A stretch of 64,000 nucleotides of DNA from Phycicoccus endophyticus (lineage in GTDB: Bacteria; Actinomycetota; Actinomycetes; Actinomycetales; Dermatophilaceae): NCBI RefSeq assembly GCF_011326735.1, contig NZ_JAANCN010000005.1:62001-126000 (forward strand), in the 5' to 3' direction. Below are positions 11,372 through 32,368 of this stretch, one piece after another (the stretch's first letter is position 1; every line of letters starts with the position of its first letter). The translations under genes were made by a program, and so were the position numbers. A model generated the notes under the pieces. That model searched no databases, was not told where the DNA came from, and saw only the letters and a list, made by a program, of their open reading frames with translations.

Positions 11372-12199
11372 ATGGGCCTGAACTCCCGCCGCGCCAACTG
11401 GTGGCTGTACGGCGTGCTCACCGTGGGCCTCGTCGCCGTCGTCGCACCCTTCGTGTGGATGGTCCTCGGCTCGTTCAAGACCGAGGGTGAGCTGCGTCAG
11501 TCACCGCCCACCTGGTGGCCCCAGGACGGCACCCTCGACAACTACACCCAGCTGTTCAGCCGGCTCGACTTCGGTGGCTACTTCACCAACTCGGTCATCG
11601 TGGCGGCCGCCGTCACCGCGGGCAACCTGCTCTTCTGCTCGATGCTCGGCTACGCCTTCGCGATGCTCGAGTTCCGCGGCAAGAGAGCGTTGTTCGTCGT
11701 GGTCATGACGACGCTGATGATCCCCGGGGTCGTGACGTTCGTCCCCCTGTTCGTCCTCGTCGCCAACGCCGGGCTGGTCAACACCCTGCCCGGGCTCTTC
11801 CTGCCCTTCCTCGTCAGCCCGTTCGGGGTCTTCCTCATGCGGCAGTTCATCATCGGGCTGCCCAAGGACCTCGTCGACGCCGCCCGCGTCGACGGCTCGG
11901 GCGAGCTCGGGATCTTCGCGCGCATCATCCTGCCGCTGTGCGGGCCGGCGCTCGCGACGCTGGGCATCCTCACCTTCCTCGGGTCGTGGAACAACTTCCT
12001 GTGGCCGCTCGTCGTGGCCCAGACCGAGGACACCTACACCCTGCCCGTCGCGCTGGCCCTCTACAGCACCGGACAGAACAGCACGAACTACGGCCTGCTC
12101 CTGGCCGGTGCCACGGTCGTGGTGCTGCCGGTGCTCGTCGTGTTCCTCGTCTTCCAGCGCCGGTTCATCGAGGGCATCGCCACGACCGGCATCAAGTGA
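11372..12199 (+). CDS. Carbohydrate ABC transporter permease (MalG type)
   Basis: A 275-residue permease, six helices, with the EAA-type loop DAARVDGSGELGIFARIILPLCGPAL and the family's C-terminal RRFIEGIATTGIK. The ATG of MGLNSRRANW lies three bases after the stop of the MalF-type gene. Together the two permeases form the membrane channel for the sugar captured by the lipoprotein upstream. Confidence 0.92.
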   Translation: MGLNSRRANWWLYGVLTVGLVAVVAPFVWMVLGSFKTEGELRQSPPTWWPQDGTLDNYTQLFSRLDFGGYFTNSVIVAAAVTAGNLLFCSMLGYAFAMLEFRGKRALFVVVMTTLMIPGVVTFVPLFVLVANAGLVNTLPGLFLPFLVSPFGVFLMRQFIIGLPKDLVDAARVDGSGELGIFARIILPLCGPALATLGILTFLGSWNNFLWPLVVAQTEDTYTLPVALALYSTGQNSTNYGLLLAGATVVVLPVLVVFLVFQRRFIEGIATTGIK

Positions 12200-12245
12200 G
12201 GCCCCGCCTCACCAGGCATCCCCCACCCTCGAAGGAGACCCTCCA

Positions 12246-18272: not shown

Positions 18273-19379
18273 GTGGACCGCCGAGACGACTACGCCATCG
18301 CGCCGGAGCGCACCTTCCTCAACCACGGGTCGTTCGGGGCGACCCCGCTCCCCGTGCTCGAGGTGGCCCGTGGGCTGCGCGCCGAGGCCGAGCAGGACTA
18401 CCCCGGCTTCTACCACGAGCGGGTCTTCCCCCTCCTGGAGGCCTCGCGCCGCGCGGTGTGCCACTACCTCGGCGTCCCCGCCGACCGCGGGGTGTTCGTC
18501 CGGAACGCGACGACCGCGATGCAGACCGTCGTCGACCACCTCGCCCTGCGGCCCGGCGACCGGGTGGTGACCACCTCGCGCGAGTACGAGGCCACCACCG
18601 TCCTGCTGCGGCTGCTCACCGCCCGCGGGGTCGAGGTGGAGACCGTCGACGGCGGGTTCTCGGGGCTGGGCGAGCGGGTCCTCGCGGCGGTCGGGCCCCG
18701 GACGCGCGCCGTCGTCGTCAGCCACGTCACCTCGCCGTGGTCGCAGGTCAACCCCGTCGACGAGCTGTCCGACGCACTCGCGGGCACCGGGGTCGCCGTC
18801 GTCGTCGACGGCGCCCACACGGCCGGGATGATGCCGATGCCGGTGGCCGGCCCGGGCGTCTTCGGGTGCCTGACCCTCCACAAGTGGCTCCACCTGCCGA
18901 CGGGCACCGGCTTCCTCGTCCTGCCCGAGGAGGCCGCCCCCACGGTGCGGCCGGTGGTGACCAGTTGGTTCGCCGAGTCCGAGGACCTGGCGCGGCGGTT
19001 CTCCTGGGCCGGGACCGACGACGTCGTCGCCCACCTCCTGGGCCGGGAGGCGGTGGCCTACCAGCGCGACCTCGAGCGGGACGGCCTCGCCGACCACCGG
19101 GCCAAGCTGACGACGCACGCGCACGACCGCCTCCTGGCCGTGCCCGGGGTGTACGCCCTCCCGCCGGCACCCCGGGCGCCGGCGATGGTCGCCGTCGGCC
19201 TGCCGGCCCTGGACCCGGAGGAGCTGCTCGCCCGGCTGCACCGCCGCGGGGTCGACCTGTGGTGCGGCACCACCGGCGAGGGCCCCGTGCTGCGGCTGTC
19301 GGTGGCGCCGTACACGACCGCCGAGGACGTCGACCATGGCCTGGGCGTGCTCGATGAGGAGCTGGCCGCGCTGCGCTGA
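18273..19379 (+). CDS. PLP-dependent class V aminotransferase (isopenicillin-N epimerase-like)
   Basis: A 368-residue fold-type I PLP enzyme. The N-terminal FLNHGSFGATPLPVLE is the hallmark of the isopenicillin-N epimerase/cysteine desulfurase-like branch. VVVDGAHTAGMMPMP supplies the PLP-interacting Asp and LTLHKWLHLPTGTGFLVL the Schiff-base Lys. The GTG start is the first plausible codon before DRRDDYAI. It may act on an amino-acid derivative as desulfurase, epimerase or lyase; no substrate clue comes from the neighbours. Confidence 0.87.
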   Translation: MDRRDDYAIAPERTFLNHGSFGATPLPVLEVARGLRAEAEQDYPGFYHERVFPLLEASRRAVCHYLGVPADRGVFVRNATTAMQTVVDHLALRPGDRVVTTSREYEATTVLLRLLTARGVEVETVDGGFSGLGERVLAAVGPRTRAVVVSHVTSPWSQVNPVDELSDALAGTGVAVVVDGAHTAGMMPMPVAGPGVFGCLTLHKWLHLPTGTGFLVLPEEAAPTVRPVVTSWFAESEDLARRFSWAGTDDVVAHLLGREAVAYQRDLERDGLADHRAKLTTHAHDRLLAVPGVYALPPAPRAPAMVAVGLPALDPEELLARLHRRGVDLWCGTTGEGPVLRLSVAPYTTAEDVDHGLGVLDEELAALR

Positions 19380-19409
19380 GCCGCCCGGGCGCCCGGGCGG
19401 CTCCTCGGG

Positions 19410-20117
19410 TCAGCGCCCGCCGCCGGACCCGGTCAGCGCCGTGGCCTCCCAGTGCTCGAGCAGGTCGGCGGTGTCCGACCAGGTCTCCACGCACCCGGCC
19501 GCCCCCAGCTCCGCGGCGCTCGTCCCCCCCGACTCCACCCCGATGCACGGCATCCCGAGCCGGCCGGCGGCCTCGGCGTCCCAGACCGCGTCGCCGACGA
19601 AGACGCACTCGGTCGGGGAGGCGCCGATCCGCTCGAGGGCCGCCTGGAGGATGTCGGTGTCGGGCTTGCTGTGCTCCGCGTCCGAGCTCGTCGTCACCTC
19701 GTCGACCCACTCGTCGGCGTCGAGGGCGCGGCGCAGCGCCTCGACGTCGCTCGGGCCCGCCGACGTGGACAGCACGACGGTCAGCCCCTCCTCGGCGCAC
19801 CGGCGCAGCAGCTCGCGCGCGCCGGGCAGGGGGACGAACCGCTCGTGCCAGGCCGTGACGAGCGCGGCGTGCGCCGCGACCACGGACTCGTCGATGCTCT
19901 CGTCGTGCTCGCCGAGCAGGTGCCCGACGATGCGGTCCGCCCCGAGGCCGATGGCGCGGTGGATCCTGGCCATCGGTACGAGGTGCCCGTGCTGGCGCAG
20001 TGCCTGCCACCAGCACGTCGTGTGGGCGTAGGTGGTGTCGACGAGGGTGCCGTCGACGTCGAGGAGCACCGCCCGCGGGCGGCCGCCGGGCGTCGGGAAG
20101 GTGGCGGTGGGGGGCAT
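19410..20117 (-). CDS. HAD-superfamily phosphatase
   Basis: A 235-residue haloacid-dehalogenase-type hydrolase. Motif I is LLDVDGTLVDTTYAHTTCW with the nucleophilic Asp, motif II VVLSTSAG, motif III SKPDTDILQAAL, and motif IV VFVGDAVWDAEAAGRLG. The cap lies between residues 35 and 95. It looks like a phosphoglycolate-phosphatase or beta-phosphoglucomutase relative; the substrate is not determined. The ATG of MPPTATFP has GAGGAG upstream. Confidence 0.88.
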   Translation of the reverse strand: MPPTATFPTPGGRPRAVLLDVDGTLVDTTYAHTTCWWQALRQHGHLVPMARIHRAIGLGADRIVGHLLGEHDESIDESVVAAHAALVTAWHERFVPLPGARELLRRCAEEGLTVVLSTSAGPSDVEALRRALDADEWVDEVTTSSDAEHSKPDTDILQAALERIGASPTECVFVGDAVWDAEAAGRLGMPCIGVESGGTSAAELGAAGCVETWSDTADLLEHWEATALTGSGGGR

Positions 20118-20315
20118 CGGTGGCTCCTCGGGGCAGGCCGGTGGCGACGGGGTCCCGGAGGTCCGGGTGCCCGCCAGCCTACGCAGCCAGGGAGGTCCCC
20201 AGCAGCCCGGCAGCGGGCCGGGCCCTGTCCGCTCTCTCGCGGTTGAGCCGGTGGCCGACGGGGTATAGGCGGTCGTTACAGTCGACATCTGCGCAGGTCA
20301 GGCTCGTGTGAGCAC

Positions 20316-20348
20316 TTGACAGCAACTTTTGCTCCATGCAAACGTTGC
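20316..20348 (+). promoter_or_regulatory. TTGACA hexamer with adjacent inverted repeat
   Basis: A consensus -35 TTGACA (20316-20321) is followed at once by an inverted repeat: arm GCAACTTTTGC (20322-20332), spacer TCCAT, arm GCAAACGTTGC (20338-20348). The arms pair at 10 of 11 positions. The repeat ends three bases before the GTG at 20352, so it would overlap the -10 region and start of transcription: a likely operator for the Nramp operon. A convincing -10 hexamer is not visible. Confidence 0.5.
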
Positions 20349-20351
20349 CCC

Positions 20352-20828
20352 GTGCAATCTCGTGGCGTCTCGACTCTCGCCCGGCCGGTGGCCCTCCTCG
20401 CCGCCGCCGCGCTCGTCGCCTGCGCCTGCCTCTGGTACCTCGTCCGGCCCCCGCGCACCGTGGGCGAGTACCGGCAGGAGGCCCACCAGACCCTCGCCTC
20501 CCTCGCCTCCGAGGTCGCGACCGCCCGGATGTGGGCCGACCATCTCGACCGCGGTGACGCCCCGCTCACGACCACCCGGCTCGGCCTCGCGGAGATGGAG
20601 TCCGACGCGACCGAGGCGGTCCGGCAGTTCGAGGCCTACCAGCCGCCGGTGGGGGCCGCGTCCGTGCGCGCCCGGGTCAGCGGCCTCGGCGGGCGCAGCG
20701 TGGCCGCGCTCGCGCAGCTGCGGATCGCCGCGCGCTCCGGCCGGCCCGAGGAGGTCGTGCGCCGGGGGCGTGACCTGCGGGGCCTCTCGAGGGACCTCGA
20801 GGCGGCGACGCGGGCGGTCGCGCCGTGA
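20352..20828 (+). CDS. Membrane-anchored helical protein of unknown function
   Basis: A 158-residue protein I do not recognise. One N-terminal transmembrane helix (ARPVALLAAAALVACACLWYLV, about residues 10-31) is followed by an Ala/Arg/Glu-rich region expected to be helical, with no cysteines or catalytic motif. The GTG start is chosen over a TTG at 20316 because that TTG is part of a -35-like element. Its stop overlaps the GTG start of the Nramp-like gene, so it is the first gene of that operon and could be an accessory subunit of the transporter; that role is inferred only from position. Confidence 0.65.
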   Translation: MQSRGVSTLARPVALLAAAALVACACLWYLVRPPRTVGEYRQEAHQTLASLASEVATARMWADHLDRGDAPLTTTRLGLAEMESDATEAVRQFEAYQPPVGAASVRARVSGLGGRSVAALAQLRIAARSGRPEEVVRRGRDLRGLSRDLEAATRAVAP

Positions 20829-22063
20829 GTACCTCGAAAGTCTTCTCCTTCACCCTCGGCACGCTCTCGGCCATCGGGGGCTTCATCGACATCGGCGACC
20901 TCGTCGCGGACGCTCTCGTCGGCGCCCGCTTCGGCCTGCGCCTGGCCTGGGTCACCGTCCTCGCCGTCATCGGGATCATGTGCTACGCGGAGATGTCCGG
21001 GCGGATCGTCGCCGTCACCGGGCGGCCCGCCTTCGACCTCGCGCGCTCGCGGCTCGGGCCGCGGTTCGGCCTCGTCGCCCTCGTCGGCTCCTTCCTCGTC
21101 ACCGGGCTGCTCGTCATGGCCGAGCTGAGCGGCATCGCGCTGTCCTTCCAGCTCGTCACCGACATCTCCTACCTGTTCTGGGTGCCGCTCGCGGCCGTGC
21201 TCGTCGGCATCGCCCTGTGGGCCCTGCCCTTCGAGATCCTCGAACGCCTCTACGGCGTCATCGGGCTCGCGATGCTCGTCTTCGTCGTCGCCGTCTGGCA
21301 GCTCCACCCGGACTGGGGCCAGATGTGGCACTCGGCCACCACGGTGCGGCCCACCGCCGGTGAGACCTGGCCCGTCTACGCCTTCCTCGGGGTCACCCTC
21401 ATCGGTGCCCAGATGACCCCCTACGAGATGTTCTTCTTCTCCTCCGGGGGCGTGGAACACCGCTGGGGGCCCAAGAGCATGTCCGAGATGCGCACCAACG
21501 TGCTCGTCGGCTTCCCCCTGGGGGGCCTGCTGGCGGTCGCGATCCAGGCCGTGGCCTACCTCGTCTTCGCGCCGGCCGGTATCGAGGTCGAGCACCTGAG
21601 CCAGACCGCGTTGCCGGTCGTCGTGGCCCTGGGCAAGGTGGGGCTGGCGTTCGCGGTCGTCGGCATCTTCGCCGCCACCTTCGGCGCCACGATGGAGACC
21701 CTCTTCGCGACCGGGTACGACATCGCGCAGTACTTCGGATGGTCCTACGGCAAGGTCCAGCCGCCCGCGCAGGCGGCTCGGTTCACCGCGGTCACGGCAT
21801 CGCTGCTCATCCTCTCGACCGCCCTGGCCCTCACGACGCTCAACCCGATCCGGGTCACCATCGTCGCGGTCGTCTTCAGTGCCATGCTCCTGCCCCTGGG
21901 CCTCTTCCCGGTCCTGCTCGTCGGCAACGACCACTCGGTCATGGGCGAGTTCCGCAACGGCCGGCTCGCCAACACCCTCGGCACGGCGACCCTGGCCCTG
22001 AGCATCCTCGTCGCGCTCGTCGCCATGCCCCTGCTCGTCTGGACCCGAGGAGGCAGCGGATGA
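20825..22063 (+). CDS. Divergent Nramp/SLC11-family metal-ion transporter
   Basis: A 412-residue transporter with about 11 helices and the LeuT-like fold of Nramp proteins. The canonical TM1 metal-binding motif DPGN is not present; the equivalent region reads GGFIDIGDLVADA. The TM6 MPH motif is replaced by GAQMTPYEMFFFSSG. Such substitutions occur in Nramp-related magnesium or trivalent-ion transporters rather than in Mn2+/Fe2+ MntH. Two PRC-barrel proteins follow in overlapping frames; PRC-barrels also accompany MgtE-type magnesium transporters. I therefore favour Mg2+ or another non-classical cation, as inference. GTG start overlapping the preceding stop. Confidence 0.82.
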   Translation: MSTSKVFSFTLGTLSAIGGFIDIGDLVADALVGARFGLRLAWVTVLAVIGIMCYAEMSGRIVAVTGRPAFDLARSRLGPRFGLVALVGSFLVTGLLVMAELSGIALSFQLVTDISYLFWVPLAAVLVGIALWALPFEILERLYGVIGLAMLVFVVAVWQLHPDWGQMWHSATTVRPTAGETWPVYAFLGVTLIGAQMTPYEMFFFSSGGVEHRWGPKSMSEMRTNVLVGFPLGGLLAVAIQAVAYLVFAPAGIEVEHLSQTALPVVVALGKVGLAFAVVGIFAATFGATMETLFATGYDIAQYFGWSYGKVQPPAQAARFTAVTASLLILSTALALTTLNPIRVTIVAVVFSAMLLPLGLFPVLLVGNDHSVMGEFRNGRLANTLGTATLALSILVALVAMPLLVWTRGGSG

Positions 22064-22440
22064 CTCCGGCACACCGCACCATGGCCATGCGGCACGACGT
22101 GCTCGACCGGCAGGTCGTCGACAGCGAGGGTCGCCCGGTGGGCCGCGTCGACGACGTCGAGCTCGACGAGGACGGCGCGGCGGTGGCCCTGCGCGTGGGG
22201 ATGGCCGCGCTGGCGCCCCGGCTCGGCGGCTGGGTGGGGCAGCTCCTGGGTGGCCTCGCCCATCGGCTGGCCGAGGGCGAGCCGTCGCCCGCGGTCCCGG
22301 TCGAGCGCGTCACGAAGTGGTCCCCGCTGGTCCACCTCGATGTCCCCGTGCGCGAGCTGGACGGCGTCGCGGGGCTGGAGGGATGGCTGGGGACCCGGGT
22401 CGTCGGACGTCTCCCAGGAGGTGGCGATGCGCGCGTCTGA
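22060..22440 (+). CDS. PRC-barrel domain protein 1
   Basis: A 126-residue protein. The N-terminal half is a PRC-barrel (HDVLDRQVVDSEGRPVGRVDDVELDEDG). After it come a Gly/Leu-rich amphipathic helix (LGGWVGQLLGGLAHRLAEGE) and AVPVERVTKWSPLVHLDVPV. PRC-barrels mediate protein or RNA contacts and regulate membrane proteins. The ATG overlaps the transporter stop (ATGA), and its own 3' end overlaps the next PRC gene by 14 bases, so all are translated together. Probably a cytoplasmic regulatory or gating partner of the transporter. Confidence 0.78.
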   Translation: MTPAHRTMAMRHDVLDRQVVDSEGRPVGRVDDVELDEDGAAVALRVGMAALAPRLGGWVGQLLGGLAHRLAEGEPSPAVPVERVTKWSPLVHLDVPVRELDGVAGLEGWLGTRVVGRLPGGGDARV

Positions 22441-22768
22441 GCTGCTCGGCCGCCCCGTGGTCGACTCCGAGGGGCACTCGCTGGGCCCGGTGCGCGACCT
22501 GCGCCTGGACCACGGGGCCACCGCCGGGCGGGTCCGTGCCCGGTGGGTCGTGGTCGGCGGGCACGAGCTGGCCCACCGTCTCGGCTACGTCGACGGCCGT
22601 ACCCGCGGCCCGGCCGTACTCGCCCGGCTGCTGCGCGGCGGCTGGCGCGACACGGCGCTCGCCGTGCCGGTCGCGGCCGTGGCCTCCTGGGGTCCGGACG
22701 TCGTCAGACTCTCGCGGCCGGCCACCGAGACGGCCCGGCCGGTGTCCGAGCTGAGGGAGTCACTGTGA
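22427..22768 (+). CDS. PRC-barrel domain protein 2
   Basis: A 113-residue PRC-barrel protein, related in pattern to the one just upstream: LLGRPVVDSEGHSLGPVRDLRLDHG aligns with its N-terminus, and ALAVPVAAVASWGPDVVRL matches the end of the barrel. The middle is Arg-rich. It begins inside the previous gene in another frame, preceded by GGAGG. The two probably arose by duplication and may form a heteromeric regulator of the Nramp-like transporter. Confidence 0.75.
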   Translation: MRASELLGRPVVDSEGHSLGPVRDLRLDHGATAGRVRARWVVVGGHELAHRLGYVDGRTRGPAVLARLLRGGWRDTALAVPVAAVASWGPDVVRLSRPATETARPVSELRESL

Positions 22769-22778
22769 GGAGGCGAGC

Positions 22779-22868
22779 ATGCTGACCACCGCCGAGGCCC
22801 TCGTGGCCGGTTGGGGGGTGCTGGTCCTCGCGGTCGGGGTCCTGGTCCTCCTCGTCCGCCGCCGCTGA
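22779..22868 (+). CDS. 29-residue membrane peptide
   Basis: A 29-residue single-helix peptide: MLTTAEALVAGWGVLVL, then a Val/Leu run ending in RRR (positive-inside). GAGGAGG lies seven bases before the ATG and the reading frame follows the second PRC gene by 10 bases, so it looks like the last gene of the operon. It could be a small regulatory subunit of the transporter. No homology is claimed. Confidence 0.55.
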   Translation: MLTTAEALVAGWGVLVLAVGVLVLLVRRR

Positions 22869-22876
22869 GGGCGCGG

Positions 22877-24025
22877 TCAGCCCCCGACGGAGGCCGGCAC
22901 TCGTCCGGCCGGCTGGTAGCTGCAGGCCGGGTCCTCGCCGAGCGGGTCGCCGGAGGCGGCGTAGGCACGCGCCCGCGAGCCCCCACAGAGGTCCGCGTAC
23001 TCGCACACGCCGCACCGGCCCGTGAAGCGGGCCGCCCGGATGTCCTGCAGGAGAGGGGTGTCGCGGTAGAGCTGGGCCAGGGGCTGCTCGGTGACCGAGC
23101 CGAGCGGCAGCGGCAGGAAGCCGGCCGGCGTCACCTCGCCGTCGTAGGCGACGAAGACGAGGCCCTTGCCGTCGCGGGTCCGCGCGGTCTGCGCGCGCAC
23201 CCGGGCCGCCGGCTCGCCCAGGAGCTCGGTGAGCCGGGCGGCGAGGCGGCGGTAGATCGGGGTCTGCGGAGCGGGCCGGCCCTCCTCCCGCCAGGCCACC
23301 ACCCGACGGAAGAACGGCGCCTCGACCGTGCGGACGACGAAGCCGTACTGGCTGGCGTCGTAGAGCAGGTGGCAGACCTCCTCGTGCTGCTCGGGGGTGA
23401 TGGCGCCCTCGGCGACCCCGCGCCCCACGTGGACGAGGAAGAAGACCTCCCAGATGTGCGCACCGGCGTCCTTGACGAGGCGGGCGACGTCGGCGAGCTC
23501 GTCGAGGTTGGCCGACATCACCGTCGTGTTGACCTGGACCGTCAGGCCGGCCTCGGACAGCGCCCGCAGGGCCGGCAGGGTCTCGGCGAAGTGGCCGGGG
23601 ATGCCGCGGACCCCGTCGTGGGTCTGCGCGCGGGCGCCGTCGAGGCTGATCGAGACGGCGTTGACGCCGGCCTCGACCATCCGGGTGACCGTCTCGGGCG
23701 TCAGCTGCGGGGTCACCGACGGGGAGAGGGCGGTGGGGATGCCCCGGGCCCGCGCCGCCGCGACGAGCTCCCAGATGTCCGGACGCAGCAGGCAGTCGCC
23801 GCCGGTGAGCACGAGGATCGGGTAGGGGCGCCCGAAGCCGGCGACCTGGTCGATGAGGTCGAGGCCCTCCTCGTGGGTCAGCTCCCCGGGCAGCGCCCCG
23901 GCCATGGCGTTGGCGCGGCAGTGCTTGCACGCCAGCTGACAGGCCCGGGTCACCTCCCAGAACACGAGCATCGGACGCTGGTCGAAGCTGACCTTGCTGG
24001 GTGCCGTGGGGGAGGGGCGTGGCAA
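22877..24025 (-). CDS. Radical SAM/SPASM protein (TIGR04053/AhbD-like)
   Basis: A radical SAM enzyme with CQLACKHC (C-x3-C-x2-C) binding the SAM cluster, LVLTGGDCLLRPDI, SISLDGARAQTHDGVRG, and a C-terminal SPASM-like region CGVCEYADLCGGSRARAYA with further cysteines. The pattern PAGFLPLPLGSV...GGSRARAYA resembles heme-synthase AhbD/NirJ relatives as well as TIGR04053. The start is uncertain. I take a TTG 13 codons before KVSFDQRPMLVFW; an ATG at 24169 keeps the frame open, but the added 48 codons include rare AGT/AGA and look non-coding. It converges with the Nramp operon and lies at the edge of the lower-GC island. Confidence 0.78.
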   Translation of the reverse strand: MPRPSPTAPSKVSFDQRPMLVFWEVTRACQLACKHCRANAMAGALPGELTHEEGLDLIDQVAGFGRPYPILVLTGGDCLLRPDIWELVAAARARGIPTALSPSVTPQLTPETVTRMVEAGVNAVSISLDGARAQTHDGVRGIPGHFAETLPALRALSEAGLTVQVNTTVMSANLDELADVARLVKDAGAHIWEVFFLVHVGRGVAEGAITPEQHEEVCHLLYDASQYGFVVRTVEAPFFRRVVAWREEGRPAPQTPIYRRLAARLTELLGEPAARVRAQTARTRDGKGLVFVAYDGEVTPAGFLPLPLGSVTEQPLAQLYRDTPLLQDIRAARFTGRCGVCEYADLCGGSRARAYAASGDPLGEDPACSYQPAGRVPASVGG

Positions 24026-24283
24026 CGGGGGCCGTCCTGGTCGTCGTCGGTCGGCACCACGAACGGGTGTCGCCCGCAATCTACTCCGGCACGGCGGCCG
24101 GGCTTCGCCCAGCACCCCGCCCTCCGGGGTCGGCACGACGTCCGGCAGAACTGGCCCCGAGCGAGCCATCCGGCACTCGACGCATCAGTCGCCGTACTCC
24201 GACATCAGTGTCGAGAAGCATCGAAGATTGCGCGCTCTCCTACGGGGTACTTTGCACGATCAGATCCCGCGTGAGGTGCGGCT

Positions 24284-25390
24284 CTACGGGACCCTCAATT
24301 CGTGGAGAGGGTCCCGGTTCGCGGCATAGGTCGCCGGAACGCTGGCAGCGAGGGCTGCGGTAGCCGTGAGTCCGACCACTACGGCCATGACGTAGCTCGG
24401 GCGCGGGATTTGCGTGTTCAGCATGGACAGCGTGGCGGTGCAGAACAGGGCGCCCATGGTGGAGGCGAGTGCGGCCGTCAGGGCCACCTGGCCGACGACG
24501 AGCGCGATGATCGTCGCGCGCGTGGCGCCGAGGGCGCGGCGGCGGCCGAGATCCTTGCGCCGGCCGAGGACGAATCCCCAGACGATGACCAGAGATATTG
24601 CGGTGGAGATAGCGAGGACGGCTAGGACGATGACGCGGGCTTGTTTGGTCAGTTCACCACCGATGGCCTGGCGCAATGTGGCCAGGCGTTCGGAGGACGA
24701 GAGGCTGACGTTCTCATCGGGGAGTTCACTCAGCAGGGGGGCGACAGTCTTCCCGAGGAAGGCGACGTCCTCCGGGCTCTTGGCGAGGATGACAATGGTG
24801 GAGAGGCTGGCCTTCCCGTGCGGGTCCGCGGGCGTCGGGATCACGACGAGTGGCTCGAAGGACTGCAGGTAGTCCGGTGGGGTGACAACGCCGGCGACCG
24901 TGTATTCCGGGCCGTCGATGATCCGTATAGTCCCGGCCCCAGGCGGCAGTCCAAGGGTTCGGCTGGCTTGCATCGAGAGCCAGGCGAGCTGCACTGTGGC
25001 CTCATTCGGGGTCCTCGGCGTGGCCTGGACGTTGCCGATCACTCCGTATGCCAACCGCGCGCCGACGCGGGTTCCGTCAGGCAGTGCTGCGGCGGTGACG
25101 TCGCGGACCGGCCCGAACCCCACGACGGTTTCAACGAGGGGGATGGTCGCGATGGTGTCGACCAACTGGGTCGCCAACAACGGGCTGTCGCCAGTGGACT
25201 GGATGACGAGCGTGCGAGTTCCCTGTTGGTCCACAGTCCGCAGAACAGCTTCTTCAGTGGCCGCAGCGCGACCACTGGTCATAAGGATTGTCGTCGTCGC
25301 TGCGGCAACGAGGACCGCGGTGACCACTGTGAAGACCCGTTGCGACCACGCGGAGGCCGCAACCTCTCGCAGGAATCGGGCCGGGCTCAC
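24284..25390 (-). CDS. ABC transporter permease, FtsX/MacB-like
   Basis: A 368-residue permease. One N-terminal helix (VFTVVTAVLVAAATTTILMT, about 19-38), an extracytoplasmic domain of about 200 residues, then three C-terminal helices: ARVIVLAVLAISTAISLVIVW, ALVVGQVALTAALASTMGALF and VMAVVVGLTATAALAAS. This is the FtsX topology of MacB-type ABC systems, which move or sense peptides in the envelope instead of importing solutes. The GRRRALGATRATII coupling segment precedes helix 3. The GTG start overlaps the ATPase stop. It is the last gene of the peptide/lipoprotein/adaptor module. Confidence 0.85.
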   Translation of the reverse strand: MSPARFLREVAASAWSQRVFTVVTAVLVAAATTTILMTSGRAAATEEAVLRTVDQQGTRTLVIQSTGDSPLLATQLVDTIATIPLVETVVGFGPVRDVTAAALPDGTRVGARLAYGVIGNVQATPRTPNEATVQLAWLSMQASRTLGLPPGAGTIRIIDGPEYTVAGVVTPPDYLQSFEPLVVIPTPADPHGKASLSTIVILAKSPEDVAFLGKTVAPLLSELPDENVSLSSSERLATLRQAIGGELTKQARVIVLAVLAISTAISLVIVWGFVLGRRKDLGRRRALGATRATIIALVVGQVALTAALASTMGALFCTATLSMLNTQIPRPSYVMAVVVGLTATAALAASVPATYAANRDPLHELRVP

Positions 25391-26094
25391 GCGCTGACCC
25401 CCTCGTGGAGCGGATCAAGTGAGATGCGCCGATCGGCCCACCCCGCGACAGTCGGGTCGTGCGTAACGACAATGGCGCAACCACCCGTGACGGCGTGTTC
25501 CCGGAACGCTTCGAGCACGGTGGCCGCCGACCGTGGATCCAGGTTGCCCGTGGCCTCATCGGCTACGAGGATGTCCGGCTCACCCAAGAGTGCGCGGCAC
25601 AAGGCAATGCGCTGGGCCTGACCTCCCGAGATCTGACCCGGCCGGCGATCGGGTGGGATCGCGATGTCGAACCGATCCATGAGCTCGCGGGCCCTCTGGG
25701 CGGCCTCACGCCGCGACTGGTTCCGGTATAGGGACGCTTCTATGATGTTGTCCAGCACACTGCGGGTGGGATCGAGTGCGGCGTCCTGAAACACGAAGCC
25801 AAACCTCCAGGCTCGAATGCGCGAGCGAGCGGCATCGGAGAGGTGGTCCACCCGCTGGCCGTCGATCTCCACAGCGCCAGCCGTCAATTTGACCATGAGC
25901 CCCAGCAGGTACAGGCGGGTGGACTTTCCGCAGCCTGACGGCCCGGTGATCGCCGTGACCGTACCGGGATGGAACTCCGCACTCCAATCGTCAACGATCG
26001 GGCTGTCGGTCCCATACCCGAACACCGCGCCCCTGACCCGCACGCGCGGGCCAAGGTACGCGCCCCCCGTAGGGGCCTCAAGGCTGGGCATCAT
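25387..26094 (-). CDS. ABC transporter ATP-binding protein
   Basis: A 235-residue ATPase of the MacB/LolD type. Walker A GPSGCGKST, Q-loop FVFQDAALDPTRSVLDNI, signature ISGGQAQRIALCRALL, Walker B ILVADEATGNLD and switch VVTHDPT are all intact. The start overlaps the adaptor's 3' end by 17 bases, and the stop overlaps the permease start. It powers the FtsX-like permease downstream. Codon use is less GC-biased than in flanking chromosomal genes. Confidence 0.92.
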   Translation of the reverse strand: MMPSLEAPTGGAYLGPRVRVRGAVFGYGTDSPIVDDWSAEFHPGTVTAITGPSGCGKSTRLYLLGLMVKLTAGAVEIDGQRVDHLSDAARSRIRAWRFGFVFQDAALDPTRSVLDNIIEASLYRNQSRREAAQRARELMDRFDIAIPPDRRPGQISGGQAQRIALCRALLGEPDILVADEATGNLDPRSAATVLEAFREHAVTGGCAIVVTHDPTVAGWADRRISLDPLHEGVSA

Positions 26095-27217
26095 CAGCGA
26101 TCCGGATCTTCTGCCCGACCGCGACGCCCTCTACGACGGCACGGCCGCCCGAGCTCGCCACGACGGTCACCGGCATCCGGGTCCCGTCCTCCGCTAAGAC
26201 AGCTGCGCTCCCATCGGTGCCGACGACAAGGGCAGTCGTCGGCACGACGACGCCTGCGGTCATGGGGATAAGCTCGATCCTCGCCGCCAGGGCAGCCTCT
26301 CCGCCTGGCGGGATACTCGAGCAGTCTCGCTCACAAATCGACGAGGATCCCTTGGTCGGTCCCAGACGTGCGATAGCTGCACCATCGGTGCCGAAATCTC
26401 CGATCTCCGTGATCTCGGCATCCCACGTGTACTCGCTCTTCGAGATCTGCACCGACATTCCGGTCCGTACCAGGGCTGCCTGGCTCTCCGGCAGGGTGAT
26501 CGTGAACGTGGGAGCAGCTGGTAGAACCTTGATGCCCACACCCTCGAGCGTGACGGTAGCGTCATCCGGCGCAGCAGGAGAACTTCCCGGGCTCACCACC
26601 GAACCGACATGGAAGCCTTGAAGGGCCACCTTGGCCGGTAGTTCCGGCACGAACAAGAGCCTCCCAAGCGGCACCTCGCCGGTAGGGCGCTCGCCATGCT
26701 CGCGCTGCCACCGCTCGACACCCCTTGCCGTGCCGGGGCCGAAGCGACCATCCGGTGCGGTGTCCATCAACCCCAATGACTTCAGCAGGGCCTGCAGCTG
26801 CCGGACATCGTCCCCGCGAGCTCCCTGCCCCAGCGTACGGAACGCAGGCACCGAACCCTGCGCGACCCACACCGGCTCGAGGTCGACGTCGTAAACCGCG
26901 TCACCAGCCTGAACTTCCCCCGAGCCGGTGACCCGAACTTTGGTGACCGTGCCTGTCGCGACGTTTGCCACCAAACCGCCACCGGTCCACCGCGCTTCCG
27001 CATTCAAATCGATAGTCCGGCCCACTGAACCATCCGTCGCGGCCATCACAACAAACGCTGGACCGCTCGGAAGCGGCGCTGGAGGAGCGAGCAGCACACG
27101 CGCTGCCCAACCCAAGCCGACCCCCACGATGAGAGCGGCCACGAGCGCGGCCACCAGCACCCTACGCCTTCGCACGCTTCCCATGCGGACGCCAACCTGC
27201 GGAACGGTCCCAACCAT
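26078..27217 (-). CDS. Membrane-anchored adaptor with peptidoglycan-binding domain
   Basis: A 379-residue HlyD/MacA-like adaptor. An N-terminal helix after RRRR (VLVAALVAALIVGVGLGWAARVLL, about residues 19-42) anchors it; a lipoyl-like strand pair (GTVTKVRVTGSGEVQAGDAVYDVD) follows. Inserted is a PG_binding_1 domain (GARGDDVRQLQALLKSLGLM, DGRFGPGTARGVERWQREHG, about 130-180). The C-terminal barrel has VVVPTTALVVGTDGSAAVL and AVVEGVAVGQKIRI. This links an ABC permease to the cell wall, a layout repeatedly seen in Gram-positive actinobacteria. ATG chosen for GGAG five to six bases upstream; a GTG five codons earlier is possible. First gene of the adaptor-ATPase-permease operon. Confidence 0.85.
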   Translation of the reverse strand: MVGTVPQVGVRMGSVRRRRVLVAALVAALIVGVGLGWAARVLLAPPAPLPSGPAFVVMAATDGSVGRTIDLNAEARWTGGGLVANVATGTVTKVRVTGSGEVQAGDAVYDVDLEPVWVAQGSVPAFRTLGQGARGDDVRQLQALLKSLGLMDTAPDGRFGPGTARGVERWQREHGERPTGEVPLGRLLFVPELPAKVALQGFHVGSVVSPGSSPAAPDDATVTLEGVGIKVLPAAPTFTITLPESQAALVRTGMSVQISKSEYTWDAEITEIGDFGTDGAAIARLGPTKGSSSICERDCSSIPPGGEAALAARIELIPMTAGVVVPTTALVVGTDGSAAVLAEDGTRMPVTVVASSGGRAVVEGVAVGQKIRIADDAQP

Positions 27218-27773
27218 CGAGTCTCCACCCACCCCTGATGAACCTACCTGCGCGCGCAGTCGTCAACAGAAGAATGGGAGCAGGCCGTGAACACCGGCTG
27301 CATGCGGCGCGCAACTAGTCCCGGGAGCACCACCGGCAGCGCCACACCCCCCGCCAGACGTGTGATCAAGACTCGGCCCTCCAACCTTTGCCGTCGGAGC
27401 GCCAGTATGACGGCGCGGATTTCGAGGGGGCTACATGACACGCGCCCCAGAAGCTAGTCCGGCAAAGCAGTGTGCGAGCAGCCGCAGCGGGGTTCTCCTT
27501 CCCCGAGTGCGCGGTCACGATCCTGGCGGTGATCTCGAGGGGGCTGACCTCGCTGCGGTCAGGCGCAGTGACGCTGGACGTCGGAATGAGGATTCGGCGG
27601 GCTATCACCCGGGACCGCTCGGAATCAGCATTCCTCCATTGCGGGAAAAACGCTTCCCCGGATCTACACGCCCGTCGCCGACCACCGAGCCTCGAAGGAT
27701 CCGGGCTAACGAAGCAGGTGACGGTCATCAGGCGATTTCTTCGAGGCGTCTCTTATAACCGAACTTGGAGGTG
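27218..27773. other. 556-base gap without a convincing gene
   Basis: No frame here has a start, ribosome site and coding-like composition. A 12-base palindrome CTGCGCGCGCAG (27248-27259) lies just upstream of the adaptor gene, and a TTGACG -35-like hexamer on the minus strand (27261-27266) could serve its promoter. Two near-copies of GAT(T/C)TCGAGGGGGCT occur at 27418-27432 and 27531-27545. The stretch may be decayed gene remnants or a regulatory leader. Confidence 0.4.
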
Positions 27774-28316
27774 CTAGCCAGGCTGTGGGCAAGTCCGATT
27801 GACTTCATCCCATTTGCTGGCACTGAGATCCGCGACGTCATTGAATGGTGACCATGGTTCGCGCCCCCCCAGATAGTCGTCGACAAACTTCTCCTCCGAG
27901 GGTGGATCTGAGATTGAATATCCGAGCCTCTCCAGGCACGCTTTGGACTTAACAAGCGCGACATATTGCGATTTAACGCGCTCCTCCGTCAGGGGCTTCG
28001 CGTTCGGCTGGGGCCCGGCCTTCGACTCACATTCCCGTACTGCGTTCTGGAATGAAGAACGTTGATTAGTGGGAAGTGAATCCACCGCAATTCCATCTCC
28101 GGTGGCCGCGATACTTACGCCCGTCCAGCCCGCATCGTGCATACAACTCACCACTCTCGCTACCCAAGCCTGAAGAGGTTGTTCGCTGACCGCTGGCGAA
28201 CTTTGCGGATTCTCGGCGCTGGGCGACGGCGAACAAGCGGTAAGGATGGCTAAAAGGAACGCGCCATAGACCACCAAGATGGGACTAGCGGGCTGTGCCC
28301 AATTATGGCGTCCCAT
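27774..28316 (-). CDS. Lipoprotein of the peptide/ABC module
   Basis: A 180-residue lipoprotein. A hydrophobic segment ends in lipobox LTAC (Cys28), followed by a Ser/Pro-rich linker. The mature domain has four further cysteines in the pattern VVSCMHDAGW, VRECESKAG, SKACLERLGY and NRTCPQPG, suggesting two disulfides, and PPSEEKFVDDYLGG. I recall similar Cys/GW-patterned lipoproteins in other actinobacteria but know no function. Its ATG lies inside the last codons of the secreted-peptide gene (14-base overlap), so the two are co-translated. Being surface-anchored and co-expressed with a secreted peptide, it could be a self-protection or receptor protein; that is inference. Confidence 0.72.
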   Translation of the reverse strand: MGRHNWAQPASPILVVYGAFLLAILTACSPSPSAENPQSSPAVSEQPLQAWVARVVSCMHDAGWTGVSIAATGDGIAVDSLPTNQRSSFQNAVRECESKAGPQPNAKPLTEERVKSQYVALVKSKACLERLGYSISDPPSEEKFVDDYLGGREPWSPFNDVADLSASKWDEVNRTCPQPG

Positions 28317-28626
28317 TGATGCAGTAGGCGTAGGTCCCAGAGTTGCCAATCGACCCATTTGTTTCGACGAACCAGAACCCGCCCCCACCGCTGGTGGCAT
28401 TTTTTGCCGTTACCTTCCAGGTGCTGCCGTTGTAGAAGACCCCGTACCCGGTGTCGGGCGGATAATGCTCAGTTGTTCCAGTCGAGTAGGCCCTCGAAAC
28501 GCCGGTTTGATTCGCCGTACAGTTCTTTGTTCCGCTCTTTCCGACACTTGCTTGCGCCGCCGCGGGAACCAGCAGAGTCATCGCAACGGCCACCGCAGCA
28601 GCCATCGAAACCTTGATTGTAGTCAT
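28303..28626 (-). CDS. Small secreted two-cysteine peptide precursor
   Basis: A 107-residue precursor. The Sec signal MTTIKVSMAAAVAVAMTLLV ends near AAAQA|SVG (about residue 29). The mature peptide of about 78 residues has two cysteines, one near each end (KNC and YCING), and is rich in Gly, Ser, Thr, Asn, Tyr and Trp (GYGVFYNGSTWKV, GGGGFWFVETNG), suggesting a disulfide-closed beta fold. Size, secretion and neighbours (lipoprotein, ABC module) suggest a bacteriocin-like or signalling peptide. It somewhat recalls lactococcin-972-type proteins in size and export route, but I see no diagnostic motif. GGGTGG precedes the ATG. Confidence 0.72.
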   Translation of the reverse strand: MTTIKVSMAAAVAVAMTLLVPAAAQASVGKSGTKNCTANQTGVSRAYSTGTTEHYPPDTGYGVFYNGSTWKVTAKNATSGGGGFWFVETNGSIGNSGTYAYCINGTP

Positions 28627-28670
28627 TTCACCCACCCCAATTTTCCGAAAACTACAGACCTGACGATGTG

Positions 28671-28700
28671 ACGCTAACGGCGCGCCACTAGACATGTCAA
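28671..28700 (-). promoter_or_regulatory. Promoter of the secreted-peptide gene
   Basis: On the minus strand a perfect -35 TTGACA (28695-28700) and a -10 TAGCGT (28671-28676, fitting TAnnnT) are separated by 18 bases. The -10 lies 44 bases before the peptide ATG. It is the best sigma-70-type promoter visible in the island and would drive the peptide and lipoprotein genes. Confidence 0.6.
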
Positions 28701-28888
28701 GAAGTATGGCGTGCACGCTTGCTTGGTCGGGAAGGGGACACTTCGGTGATGGGAGTCAGCGGGGAGGCGGACGGGCATGAGCACGTGCCGGTAGTCGGGA
28801 GGGACTGCTGCACGGATTGGTGGCATCTGGTTTGGCTTGCCTGCGGGGTGGGCCTGCGGGCAACCGGCGAGAGCACCATGCCGAGTTC

Positions 28889-29704
28889 CTACACAGCCTT
28901 GGGGTAGAGAAGGGTTTCCGACCCCGTGGCCTTCAGCCAGTGCCGATACGGCGCCAAGCTAGGACCGGTGAGACACACATACATCTCAAGGCCGAAGATG
29001 GACATAGCGAAGATGATGTGCTGGTCGCCGAGGACAAGGAAGTCAAGTTCTGAGACGCGTTGGTCGCCCGGTTCGTCGTCCGCGAACTGGGTATCCGCCT
29101 CGTAGATCCGTCGAACGGAGACCTCCCACGTGTCTGGTCCCTGCCCGTACCGGACGAATCGGCGACAGGGATCCAATTCTGGCGCGCCATCGAAGTTCAC
29201 GAGAGAGCCGACGTGGTGCAGGTTCTCCAGGGCGATGTACTCGTAGCCCGACTTTGCGACGAACCTCGCGACTTCCCTTGATGTCCTCAAGGAGTCGGGG
29301 GCCGCGGCGTAGCCGACTGTCGGGCGCGAGGCACCTGTGAAGGCCCCCTTGGTGACCACCTCAGGAGCATCGACCTCGAGCAGCCTCCGCGCGGAACTTC
29401 GGTCGAGAATCATCTCGGCCTCCATCCCGTTCGCCAACCTGACAGGCATGTTGGGGATCCGTCCGCGTTTGTTGCCAACCCCCTGCAAGTGCCGCAAAGC
29501 CACCATTGCTGCTGAGCTCACGACGGGCGCCTCCACCTTCCGCCCAAGGTAGTTGTTGCACGCGTTGCACACCGCTCCCGGCGAGAGGACGAGACTATCG
29601 TTCTCCAACGCTTCCGGCACGATATGCTCCCAACTCACTGACAAGCGGGAGTCGCCATCGCAGAAGATGCACAAGGACAGTGAGGCCGACGCAGCCTGAG
29701 GCAC
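28889..29704 (-). CDS. HNH-type endonuclease-like protein
   Basis: A 271-residue protein. The N-terminal zinc/HNH core reads LCIFCDGDSRLSVSWEHIVP, followed by CNACNNYLGRKVEAP: two CxxC pairs around WEHIVPEAL, as in HNH_5-type nucleases. The remaining 200 residues are unrecognised. I choose a GTG because AAAGGAG lies five to six bases upstream; an ATG at 29743 is in frame but falls within a palindrome. It diverges from an XRE-DUF488 gene, with the palindrome between them. A host-defence or mobile-element role is possible, but there is no partner methylase or toxin nearby. Confidence 0.72.
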   Translation of the reverse strand: MPQAASASLSLCIFCDGDSRLSVSWEHIVPEALENDSLVLSPGAVCNACNNYLGRKVEAPVVSSAAMVALRHLQGVGNKRGRIPNMPVRLANGMEAEMILDRSSARRLLEVDAPEVVTKGAFTGASRPTVGYAAAPDSLRTSREVARFVAKSGYEYIALENLHHVGSLVNFDGAPELDPCRRFVRYGQGPDTWEVSVRRIYEADTQFADDEPGDQRVSELDFLVLGDQHIIFAMSIFGLEMYVCLTGPSLAPYRHWLKATGSETLLYPKAV

Positions 29705-29742
29705 GAACGCTCCTTTCAGGCCCGGGTCGGACCTCGGCCGCA

Positions 29743-29758
29743 TAGTAATGATTTACTA
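29743..29758. promoter_or_regulatory. Palindrome between divergent HNH and XRE-DUF488 genes
   Basis: Perfect 6-base arms TAGTAA (29743-29748) and TTACTA (29753-29758) around TGAT, in an AT-rich pocket. It lies 38 bases before the HNH GTG and 5 bases before the upstream candidate GTG of the XRE protein, so it overlaps any promoter for both. The XRE protein is the natural candidate to bind it. Confidence 0.6.
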
Positions 29759-29763
29759 CACCT

Positions 29764-30411
29764 GTGAGCCCCGAGTCTTCCATGCCCCGGACCCGCAGTC
29801 AGGCCCTCGGCTCAGGAATCGCGCAAGCGCGTTGGGAGCGCGGCATCACCCAAGGGGAGCTCGCGACTGCCTCGGGGGTAGGACTTGAGACATTGCGGAA
29901 GCTCGAGCAAGGGCACGTCGAGCAGCCTGGAGTGTTTCGGATCGCCGCCATCGCGGATGCTCTGGAGATGGCTGTGGATTCGCTCTTGCCCGCGCGGCCG
30001 CATCCGGTGTCGTCGGTCGGGTATGAAGGCTGCGATATCGCATCGTTCGTCGATGCGATCCAGGCGGCCAACGTCGACCTAGTTGCTGACGTTCGCCTCA
30101 CACCTCTGAGCCGGAAGCAAGGGTTCAGCAAGGCGCGCCTGGACTCGGCCCTCGGGGAGATCGGCGTGCGATACGAGCACCTACGGTCCCTGGGGAATGC
30201 CAAGGAGAACCGACCGCTCTTTGCCGGCGCGGAGCTGGAGGTCGGGCGGGCACGCTATCGAGCCGGCCTCCGGACCCCCGAGGCGAAGCGCGCCCTCGAT
30301 GAGTTGGCCTCTTGGCGACAAGAGCATCACGTCGTTTTGCTCTGTTTCGAGCGAGATGAGCGGCGATGCCACCGCTCCGTCGTGCTCGAGGAGCTGGCTC
30401 AGTTGGGGTAG
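29764..30411 (+). CDS. XRE helix-turn-helix fused to DUF488
   Basis: A 215-residue fusion. Residues about 17-70 form a Cro/CI-type HTH (GITQGELATASGVGLETLRKLEQG), and about 82-213 a DUF488 domain with SVGYEGCDIASFVDAI, LVADVRLTPLSRKQGFSK, YEHLRSLGN and VVLLCFERDERRCHRSVV. The conserved CHR and Asp/Arg residues of DUF488 are kept. DUF488 has no settled function. GTG start taken; an ATG six codons later is possible. With the palindrome 5 bases upstream it probably regulates itself and the divergent HNH gene. Its end overlaps the convergent broken gene by 13 bases. Confidence 0.8.
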   Translation: MSPESSMPRTRSQALGSGIAQARWERGITQGELATASGVGLETLRKLEQGHVEQPGVFRIAAIADALEMAVDSLLPARPHPVSSVGYEGCDIASFVDAIQAANVDLVADVRLTPLSRKQGFSKARLDSALGEIGVRYEHLRSLGNAKENRPLFAGAELEVGRARYRAGLRTPEAKRALDELASWRQEHHVVLLCFERDERRCHRSVVLEELAQLG

Positions 30412-30928
30412 TACACCCCGAGCACGTGGAACACCTGGTGGCGTTTGGCTTGGTTGCCGACGAAGAAGGCCGGCCGCCGTGGCGCCTGGAACATCATGTC
30501 GACGAACTTGGCTCGAAGTGCGCCGCGAACGACGGCATCGCTTGCGCCGCTGAGCCGGCGCTGGAGAGCCACGAGCTCCCAGTCGATGATGCTCTGCTCG
30601 TGACTGCGGCACGAGGGCTCGAAACACTTTCAGCGATAACGACCTTCGAATCGAGGTCCTCGAGCGCACTCTTGTCTGCAGTGTCGAAGAGATCGAGTTG
30701 ATTGACATAGGCATCGATCTTGGCTTGCTCGTCTTGCGACCAGCCTGGGTGGTCAGTGACCCGGAGGTCGATGAGTTCTCGGACTGGCACGAGGCCGAGC
30801 GACGCGTCGGCAGCTTCCGCCTGGTTCTCGCGGTTCAGGGCGCACATGGTGTCTGTCACCGTTGGGTCCAGCAGGGCTTGCCGCCGCTTCCATGGGTCGA
30901 GATGGTCGACGACCGTCATCGTCGACAT
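30399..30928 (-). pseudogene. Conserved hypothetical gene broken by a -1 frameshift
   Basis: Frame 1 gives 100 coding-like codons, MSTMTVVDHLDPWKRRQALL to LEDLDSKVVIAE, including VTDHPGWSQDEQAKIDAYV. After the GAA at 30631-30629 that frame turns into Ser/Ala-rich nonsense and stops near 30494. In the -1 frame, beginning at 30629, 76 clearly coding residues follow: KCFEPSCRSHEQSIIDWELV through FFVGNQAKRHQVFHVLGVYYPN, ending at TGA 30399-30401. The two halves match one conserved actinobacterial protein family of unknown function as I remember it. No classical slippery heptamer is visible, so mutation (or a sequencing error) is likelier than programmed shifting. Its upstream end faces dnaB. Confidence 0.75.
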
Positions 30929-30997
30929 ATCAGGTCGCCAGGACTCGACTCGATTGTCGCCGGTGGCGGGAGTGGCCCGAACGCGGATGATGTCGTA

Positions 30998-32368
30998 TCA
31001 GAAGCCGCCGTCGCGAGCCATGTTGTTGAAGCGCGAGTAGTGGCCCTGGAAGGCCAGGACGAGGTCCTTCGTCGGCCCGTTGCGGTGCTTGGCCACGATG
31101 ACGTCCGCCTCGCCGTCGCGCTCGGGGTCGGAGCGGTCCCGGTGCAGGAGGATGACGACGTCGGCGTCCTGCTCGATCGAGCCCGACTCGCGCAGGTCCG
31201 ACATCTGGGGGCGCTTGTCGGTGCGCTGCTCCGGACCTCGGTTCAGCTGGGAGATCGCGACGACCGGCACCTCGAGCTCCTTGGCGAGCAGCTTCAGCGC
31301 CCGGGAGAACTCGGCGACCTCCTGCTGGCGGGACTCGACCTTCTTGCCGCTCGTCATCAGCTGGAGGTAGTCGATGACGACGAGCTTGAGGTTGTGCTGC
31401 TGCTTGAGCCGGCGCGCTTTGGCCCGGATCTCCATGAGCGACATGTTCGGGCTGTCGTCGATGAACAGCGGCGCGTTGGAGATCTTCCCCATGATCCGCG
31501 CCAGCTTGGTCCACTGCTCCTGGTTCTTCAGCCCTCGGCGCAGGTCCTGCAGCTGGATCGTGGCCTCCGCCGAGAGGATGCGCATCGTGATCTCGGTGCG
31601 GCTCATCTCCAGCGAGAACACGGCCGCCGCCATGTCGTGCTTGATCGCCGCCGTGCGCACGATGTCGATGCCCAGCGTCGACTTGCCGACCGCCGGACGG
31701 GCCGCGACGACGACCATCTGCCCGGGGTGCAGGCCGTGGGTCAGCTCGTCGAGCTCGATGAACCCCGTGGGCACCCCGATCAGCTCGTCGGTGCGCCCCG
31801 AGGCGGCCTCGATCTCCTCCATCGTCTCGTTGAGCAGCTCGCCGAGGGCGTGGTAGTCCTCCCCGCCGCGCTTCTCGGCGACCGAGTACACCTCCGCCTG
31901 GGCGCGGTTGACGATGTCGTCGATGTCCCCCTCGCCCTGGGCGTAGCCCATCTGGACGATCCGGGTGCCCGCCTCGACCAGCCGCCGCAGCACCGCCCGC
32001 TCGTGGACGATCTCCGCGTAGTAGCCGGCGTTGGCCGCGGTCGGCACCGACTGGATGAGCTGGTGCAGGTAGGCCTGGCCGCCCACCCGCGCGAGGTCAC
32101 CGCGCTTGGAGAGCTCGTCGGCGACGGTGATCGCGTCCGCCGGCTCACCCCGGCCGAACAGGTCGAGCACGGCGTCGAAGATCGCCTCGTGCGCCGGGCG
32201 GTAGAAGTCGTGGGCCTTGACCTCCTCGAGGCAGTCGGCGATGGCGTCCTTGTCGAGGAGCATCGAGCCGAGCACCGACTGCTCGGCGTGGAGGTCCTGC
32301 GGGGGGACGCGCTCGTCGGGGCGTGCCGAGGGCTCGGCGTACGCCTCGCTCAGCTCCGCGATGCTCAC
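30998..32368 (-). CDS. dnaB: Replicative DNA helicase DnaB
   Basis: A 456-residue hexameric helicase that unwinds DNA at the replication fork. The N-terminal domain has DLHAEQSVLGSMLLDKDAI; the RecA-like domain has Walker A ARPAVGKST, FSLEMSRTEITMRILSAEA, Walker B-type LVVIDYLQLM, SQLNRGPEQRTDKRPQMSDLRESGSIEQDAD and the C-terminal HRNGPTKDLVLAFQG. No intein is present. GTG start chosen for GGGAGGAAGGGG upstream; the longer frame is Arg-rich and non-coding. Its 3' end borders the lower-GC island. Confidence 0.96.
   Translation of the reverse strand: MSIAELSEAYAEPSARPDERVPPQDLHAEQSVLGSMLLDKDAIADCLEEVKAHDFYRPAHEAIFDAVLDLFGRGEPADAITVADELSKRGDLARVGGQAYLHQLIQSVPTAANAGYYAEIVHERAVLRRLVEAGTRIVQMGYAQGEGDIDDIVNRAQAEVYSVAEKRGGEDYHALGELLNETMEEIEAASGRTDELIGVPTGFIELDELTHGLHPGQMVVVAARPAVGKSTLGIDIVRTAAIKHDMAAAVFSLEMSRTEITMRILSAEATIQLQDLRRGLKNQEQWTKLARIMGKISNAPLFIDDSPNMSLMEIRAKARRLKQQHNLKLVVIDYLQLMTSGKKVESRQQEVAEFSRALKLLAKELEVPVVAISQLNRGPEQRTDKRPQMSDLRESGSIEQDADVVILLHRDRSDPERDGEADVIVAKHRNGPTKDLVLAFQGHYSRFNNMARDGGF

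Follow-up and report, generated by a model that had tools for sequence, protein, structure and literature searches.

The plan of a bacteriocin accompanied by a lipoprotein or membrane protein, a MacA-like adaptor, an ATPase and a MacB-like permease has close precedents. DdGHIJ is reported to comprise DdG, whose role is unknown, an RND-type adaptor, an ATPase and a MacB-like permease, and As-48FGH is 94–98% identical to DdHIJ; both DdGHIJ and As-48EFGH give resistance to externally added bacteriocin, and As-48EFGH is unable to export newly made AS-48 (PMC8538875, PMC9865063). The nisin system combines NisI, an extracytoplasmic peptide-binding lipoprotein, with NisFEG, an ATP-binding cassette (ABC) pump that expels the peptide. 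NisFEG is an ABC-2-type transporter, not an FtsX/MacB-like one. Propionicin T1 (PctA) of Propionibacterium thoenii has a leader of 31 amino acids (aa) with signal-peptide features, a mature part of 65 aa and, 68 nucleotides downstream, an ABC gene proposed as immunity determinant (PMC5756557), and a lactococcin-972-type operon of Brevibacterium, located in a genomic island, encodes two membrane proteins and an ATPase (PMC5719810). Here we analyze a five-gene module in a stretch of 64,000 nucleotides from Phycicoccus endophyticus (contig NZ_JAANCN010000005.1, positions 62,001 to 126,000; hereafter the window). The module is a real, recurring and so far undescribed peptide-plus-immunity-like unit with a predicted function: its peptide is probably a Sec-exported, bacteriocin-like one from a family not yet described, and a lipoprotein and a MacB-type pump would protect the producer against it. 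The module in the window consists of the following features:

28303–28626, − strand: Sec-secreted two-cysteine peptide precursor, 107 aa, mature part about 81 aa
27774–28316, − strand: lipoprotein, 180 aa, with lipid Cys 28 plus Cys 58, 96, 127 and 176
27233–27773, no strand: interval between lipoprotein and adaptor genes, absent from 20 other same-strand loci compared
26078–27232, − strand: membrane-fusion/adaptor-like protein with a PG_binding_1 domain at residues 139–187 (E 2.2e-11)
25387–26094, − strand: ABC ATPase of the LolD/MacB/FtsE kind, from profile scans
24284–25390, − strand: FtsX/MacB-type permease (PF02687, E 1.8e-9)

The preliminary description of this DNA had noted on one strand a Sec-secreted peptide, an overlapping multi-cysteine lipoprotein and a coupled adaptor, ATPase and permease, and all five open reading frames (ORFs) are indeed intact on the − strand at 24284–28626. 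The peptide and lipoprotein genes overlap by 14 bases, the ATPase and adaptor genes by 17 and the ATPase and permease genes by 4. Lipoprotein and adaptor, by contrast, are not tightly coupled in the window: 541 bases separate the called genes, or 514 when counted to where the adaptor's frame opens, a distance that never exceeds 7 bases in the 20 other same-strand loci. The interval has no second copy in its own genome and no plasmid match. A promoter scan yielded no promoter. The GC content of the module is 0.61–0.67, below that of most of the window. The ATPase scores best with LolD (150 bits) and L_ocin_972_ABC (TIGR03608, 144.2 bits), both below the curated NCBIfam cut-offs, and the adaptor has weak, below-cut-off matches to HlyD_D23 (92–124) and RND_mfp (325–376). 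Its peptidoglycan (PG)-binding domain, which is kept in the copies of a second genome described below, appears to separate the two half-motifs that make up the lipoyl-like domain of the adaptor. Gram-negative adaptors carry a hairpin at this place of the lipoyl-like domain.

Set beside the described systems, the module resembles As-48EFGH and DdGHIJ in keeping genes for an adaptor, an ATPase and a MacB-like permease together, here beside a candidate bacteriocin peptide. It differs in that the enterocins AS-48 and EntDD14 are circular or leaderless peptides with their own exporter, that DdGHIJ is reported to aid export as well, and that the available passages mention no PG-binding domain or lipoprotein; the likeness is one of description. 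The same holds for NisI/NisFEG, which shares the pairing of lipoprotein and ABC pump but serves a lantibiotic, and for propionicin T1, which is likewise actinobacterial with a signal-type leader and an ABC gene nearby, but for which the available passages mention one ABC gene and no lipoprotein. Like the module, MacAB/LolCDE-type systems combine an FtsX permease with an adaptor and an ATPase of the kind that scores with LolD, but the module ATPase falls below the family cut-offs and its adaptor has a PG-binding domain. CmmAMP-I of Clavibacter michiganensis (Microbacteriaceae) is said to be a Sec-secreted antibacterial protein, and is again alike by description. The lactococcin 972 operon resembles the module in encoding a small secreted peptide, there a bacteriocin, together with membrane proteins and an ATPase (PMC5719810). 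Membership in that family was rejected: none of 15 peptides matches PF09683 at E ≤ 1, PF09683 has no match at E ≤ 0.001 in the window's own genome or the second genome, and profile–profile alignment of mature parts, using 6 of 7 fetched lactococcin 972 members (L264 was left out and starts were guessed), gave an hhalign probability of 0.2% and E 0.33 against 20 peptides. Running counter to this rejection, the lactococcin 972 member L268 scored E 0.006 against the profile of full-length peptides. For the partner ATPase of lactococcin 972, TIGR03608, the cut-off is 254.85 bits, which the score given above does not reach. The earlier statement that no described system has exactly this set stands for the exact five genes, of which we found no description in the open-licence PubMed Central literature searched, but not for the overall plan; the peptide and the lipoprotein appear to be new families within a known kind of arrangement.

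The co-occurrence of the five genes, a check proposed in the preliminary description, was borne out both within the order and outside it. Another genome of the same order (G062) carries the lipoprotein–adaptor–ATPase–permease set four times in the same gene order, at about 23–50% identity to the window, and two of these copies (L023 and L025) have a two-cysteine Sec peptide directly upstream. A lipoprotein profile matched 92 of 297 genomes of the order at E ≤ 1e-3, with many weak matches spanning the N-terminal part only, and we fetched 40 regions around listed matches with E up to 2.5e-8, not counting G062 and the window. At least the adaptor gene adjoins the lipoprotein in 35 of these, some contigs ending before the remaining genes, and in five (L066, L075, L077, L084, L087) the lipoprotein is alone. 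Typed by adaptor and permease score against window and G062 models, the regions divide into 20 of type A, 15 of type B and the five lone lipoproteins. Absences and tallies here and below are lower bounds because a limited number of candidates was scored per genome (lipoprotein 10 in the order and 8 in the class, peptide 16 and 19). A wider lipoprotein profile matched 43 of 394 genomes of the class at E ≤ 1e-6. Of 10 regions fetched, three from outside the order hold type-A modules: L244 with three peptides, L245 with one, and L246 with only a one-cysteine secreted ORF upstream. In L247 the lipoprotein gene lies where the contig ends and is immediately preceded by a two-cysteine Sec ORF to which the peptide profile gave no match, and six type-B-like regions lack a credible two-cysteine peptide. 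On the Clavibacter sp. plasmid pCL-A6099, typed as mobilizable, the order is adaptor–ATPase–permease–peptide–lipoprotein; of these five genes the PLSDB gene table for the plasmid, which describes itself as incomplete, has only those of the ATPase and permease. The arrangement is more than chance because it recurs in other genomes. With the ATPase alignment as query, the 80 of 588 matches that were listed were mostly unrelated MacB/LolD-like loci. Searches found no relative on viral contigs and no phage match to the adaptor. Two observations concern type-B and similar regions: a four-cysteine secreted ORF adjoins the permease in L251, and a histidine kinase lies at about 5–6 kb in L078 and L088, neighbors having been scanned at four type-B loci.

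The peptide is strongly linked to the module. We used a criterion without homology, written after the first peptides had been seen, that called for a Sec-like N-terminus, a small-x-small cleavage site, a mature part of 58–98 aa and exactly two cysteines, one near each end. Among the window, the four G062 copies and the 20 regions, 25 type-A loci in all (L057 and L058 are near copies), it flagged 15, of which 14 are credible, the flagged ORF in L026 being Arg-rich and spurious by eye; with two loci found via the peptide itself (L206, L207) the raw count is 17/27. It flagged none of the 15 type-B loci and none of the five lone lipoproteins. The raw candidates number 21 across the 142,708 bp of type-A modules and their surroundings, where 18 are credible by eye, against 3 in 452,599 bp elsewhere, all spurious by eye. 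Five-cysteine relatives occur in type-A loci L064, downstream of the permease, and L070, and a truncated copy in L079. Profile A5, built on 15 of the order's peptides and run on the 297 genomes, found 34 places at E ≤ 1e-3, and all 18 with E < 1e-10 adjoin a module (15 are training rows, two in G469 nearly duplicate training rows, and one, in G369, is new). Five of the 16 weaker places also adjoin module genes, including a new one in G296 (L207) and a divergent one in G419 (L211), where adaptor and ATPase were found and the permease gave no match; at the other 11, the loci examined gave no match to lipoprotein, adaptor or permease. Run on 251 class genomes, the same profile gave 31 places. Four are training rows, and four more adjoin modules: three tandem peptides in G701, with E from 7e-11 to 6e-7, and a single one in G600 at E 5e-5. 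The 23 others were weak (E 2e-5 or worse), with no module gene in loci of roughly 3 kb, and one without a module (G298) ranks above G600. The preliminary description would have fallen had homologues lain consistently apart from the ABC genes, and instead the peptide family proved tied to the module. Further ORFs were noticed at some loci: two small secreted or membrane proteins, alike by eye, lie 5′ of the type-A lipoproteins at L061:7830–8384 and L070:7108–7599, fragmentary extra peptide copies flank the intact one at L065:7428–7556 and 12129–12530, and L211:6802–9613 holds the divergent version with another two-cysteine Sec peptide, a Cys-rich lipoprotein-like ORF, an adaptor and an ATPase.

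The window peptide is likely cleaved at AQA|SVGK, leaving 81 aa of 8.36 kDa with an isoelectric point of 8.6 and cysteines at mature positions 10 and 76. By pattern, its Sec signal and small mature part fit the class of Sec-secreted bacteriocins, and with a Sec-type signal its export needs no ABC transporter. By eye, G-[ST]-x-x-C occurs near the mature start in 12 of 20 peptides, Trp in 19, and in 15 the last Cys follows an aromatic residue by no more than four positions. The composition, judged without a computed background, is rich in G/A/S/T/Y/W/N. Fifteen peptides searched against Pfam, NCBIfam and PHROG gave nothing better than E 0.019, and a single-sequence search matched 8 of 296 genomes of the phylum at E ≤ 0.01, convincingly only in its own genome and G062. 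An AlphaFold2 model from a 15-row alignment predicts an all-beta mature peptide with a mean predicted local distance difference test (pLDDT) score of 73. The lipoprotein carries the lipobox LTAC28. All 24 aligned homologues have Cys 28, 58, 127 and 176, and at least 90% of them also have Cys 96. Lipobox and signal match the NisI/LanI type as a pattern (C28 in 24/24). Its model is mostly helical, with a mean pLDDT of at least 90 from about residue 51. A relation to NisI/LanI-type proteins, or to any known family or solved structure, was not recovered by sequence or fold: the model has no match among PDB folds at E ≤ 0.001, the best Pfam hit for five lipoproteins is E 0.12, the window protein against NCBIfam reaches only HrpD5 (E 9e-4; 18.7 bits, cut-off 300), and the best hit among PDB sequences is E 0.029.

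Across 17–18 loci, mean pairwise identity is 0.20 for the mature peptide, 0.235 for the lipoprotein, 0.31 for the permease, 0.34 for the adaptor and 0.51 for the ATPase. Selection on the peptide gene was measurable only in relatives of the window locus. In the close pair L076/L206 the ratio of nonsynonymous to synonymous rates (dN/dS) is 0.13–0.32 over the five genes and 0.25 for the peptide. The L057/L058 peptides gave 0.61 and 1.04 on few substitutions, the two together having nine nonsynonymous substitutions where the compared lipoprotein and permease have none. In L244 the signal of peptide copies 2 and 3 is near-identical (dS 0.04) and the mature parts are divergent (dS 0.98), a pattern that swapping or rapid divergence of mature parts would produce. 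In a genome of the same genus (G523) the two flanks, which in the window run up to 19354 and start again at 31000, are kept but enclose different content, which places the module in a variable segment (19354–31000) beside dnaB; in another (G555) the dnaB side alone matched within the 19 kb taken.

These features, namely divergent mature peptides, tandem peptides, peptide-less modules, a plasmid copy, a variable segment and lower GC, are bacteriocin-like, and we propose a mechanism of Sec export, lipoprotein capture and ABC push-off inferred from gene order, signals and precedents. The peptide would exit via Sec, be cleaved after AQA and fold outside the cell into a small beta-rich protein, one disulfide probably joining its two conserved cysteines, and would then kill bacteria. 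The lipoprotein, anchored outside the producer's membrane, would intercept returning peptide. Together with the PG-binding adaptor to which they are coupled, ATPase and FtsX-type permease would use ATP to drive it from the membrane, presumably outwards, into or through the wall, and the PG-binding domain would stand where other adaptors have their helical hairpin. More tentatively, as a serious possibility rather than the expected outcome, the module may represent a large undescribed class in Actinomycetes, Sec-exported beta-rich two-cysteine antibacterials with a hypervariable mature part, protected by a wall-anchored pump in which a PG-binding domain of the MacA-like adaptor replaces the hairpin used by Gram-negatives for docking to the outer-membrane channel, and which would eject the lipoprotein's captured peptide into the wall instead of across an outer membrane.

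Several points weigh against a bacteriocin with dedicated immunity. Activity is known for no family member, a credible two-cysteine peptide was not found in 11 of the 25 type-A loci, and net charge is negative in 4 of 20 peptides. The fold prediction proposed in the preliminary description yielded the all-beta model and no match among PDB folds at E ≤ 0.001. Distances of mature peptide and lipoprotein are uncorrelated (rho 0.09, p 0.18, 17 loci), and mirror-tree correlations of the peptide with the other partners are lower still, peptide distances being near saturation. Positive selection was not shown: most close comparisons gave dN/dS values below 1, and two with few substitutions gave values near 1. 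Proteins with a Sec signal and a Cys near each end also occur without a module in G298, G457 and G694. We take these three to be Excalibur-like, and since they share the pattern without a module, the two-cysteine pattern alone does not define the peptide family.

The preliminary description had left open whether the complex removes, senses or releases the peptide. Release, in which the ABC complex and lipoprotein mature, fold or release a Sec-exported peptide that then serves competition or attachment, would accord with the overlap of the peptide and lipoprotein genes, with the PG-binding domain of the adaptor and with DdGHIJ, which in the passages available aids export (reportedly up to 75%) besides giving resistance; we nevertheless consider it unlikely, as peptide-less type-A modules and the absence of peptides from all 15 type-B loci suggest that the pump is useful without a peptide of its own. 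Were the peptide instead a signal, sensed by lipoprotein and ABC complex to control envelope responses, the module would recall Bce-type sensing, in which FtsX-type permeases are reported to take part, and the histidine kinases near two type-B loci would fit. No histidine kinase or response regulator is among the eight window proteins scanned, however, and mature peptides of about 80 aa that vary so extremely make a signal very unlikely. Equally improbable in our view is an endogenous envelope or adhesion protein served by a housekeeping remover of mislocalized secreted proteins: the all-beta model and the residue composition, again without a computed background, speak for it, but the module is sporadic, was not found in two genomes of the same genus (first 10 and 16 candidates per genome scored), and occurs in four copies in G062 and one on a plasmid. 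The comparative evidence favors removal and immunity, along the lines proposed or shown for propionicin T1, NisI/NisFEG and As-48EFGH, the biochemical step itself being a prediction.

Neighboring genes in the window include a TIGR04053 family radical SAM/SPASM protein adjoining the module (22877–24169, − strand; 506 bits, cut-off 395), tried as a synteny anchor and not found in the two same-genus genomes, so that dnaB served instead. Directly upstream of the peptide gene and on its strand lies an HNH_5 endonuclease-like gene (28889–29743, −), and at 29764–30411 (+) an HTH_3 domain fused to DUF488 matches the PADLOC candidate defence models PDC-M19A and PDC-M45B.

As 15 peptides and 5 lipoproteins fall under Pfam cut-offs and both genes are absent from the PLSDB table, mining by known families likely overlooks both. 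If the peptides kill, they would form a reservoir of narrow-spectrum antibacterials in Actinomycetes for which the conserved ABC module is a ready genomic marker, and the PG-binding adaptor raises the testable question of how a MacB-type machine might work in a cell without an outer membrane.

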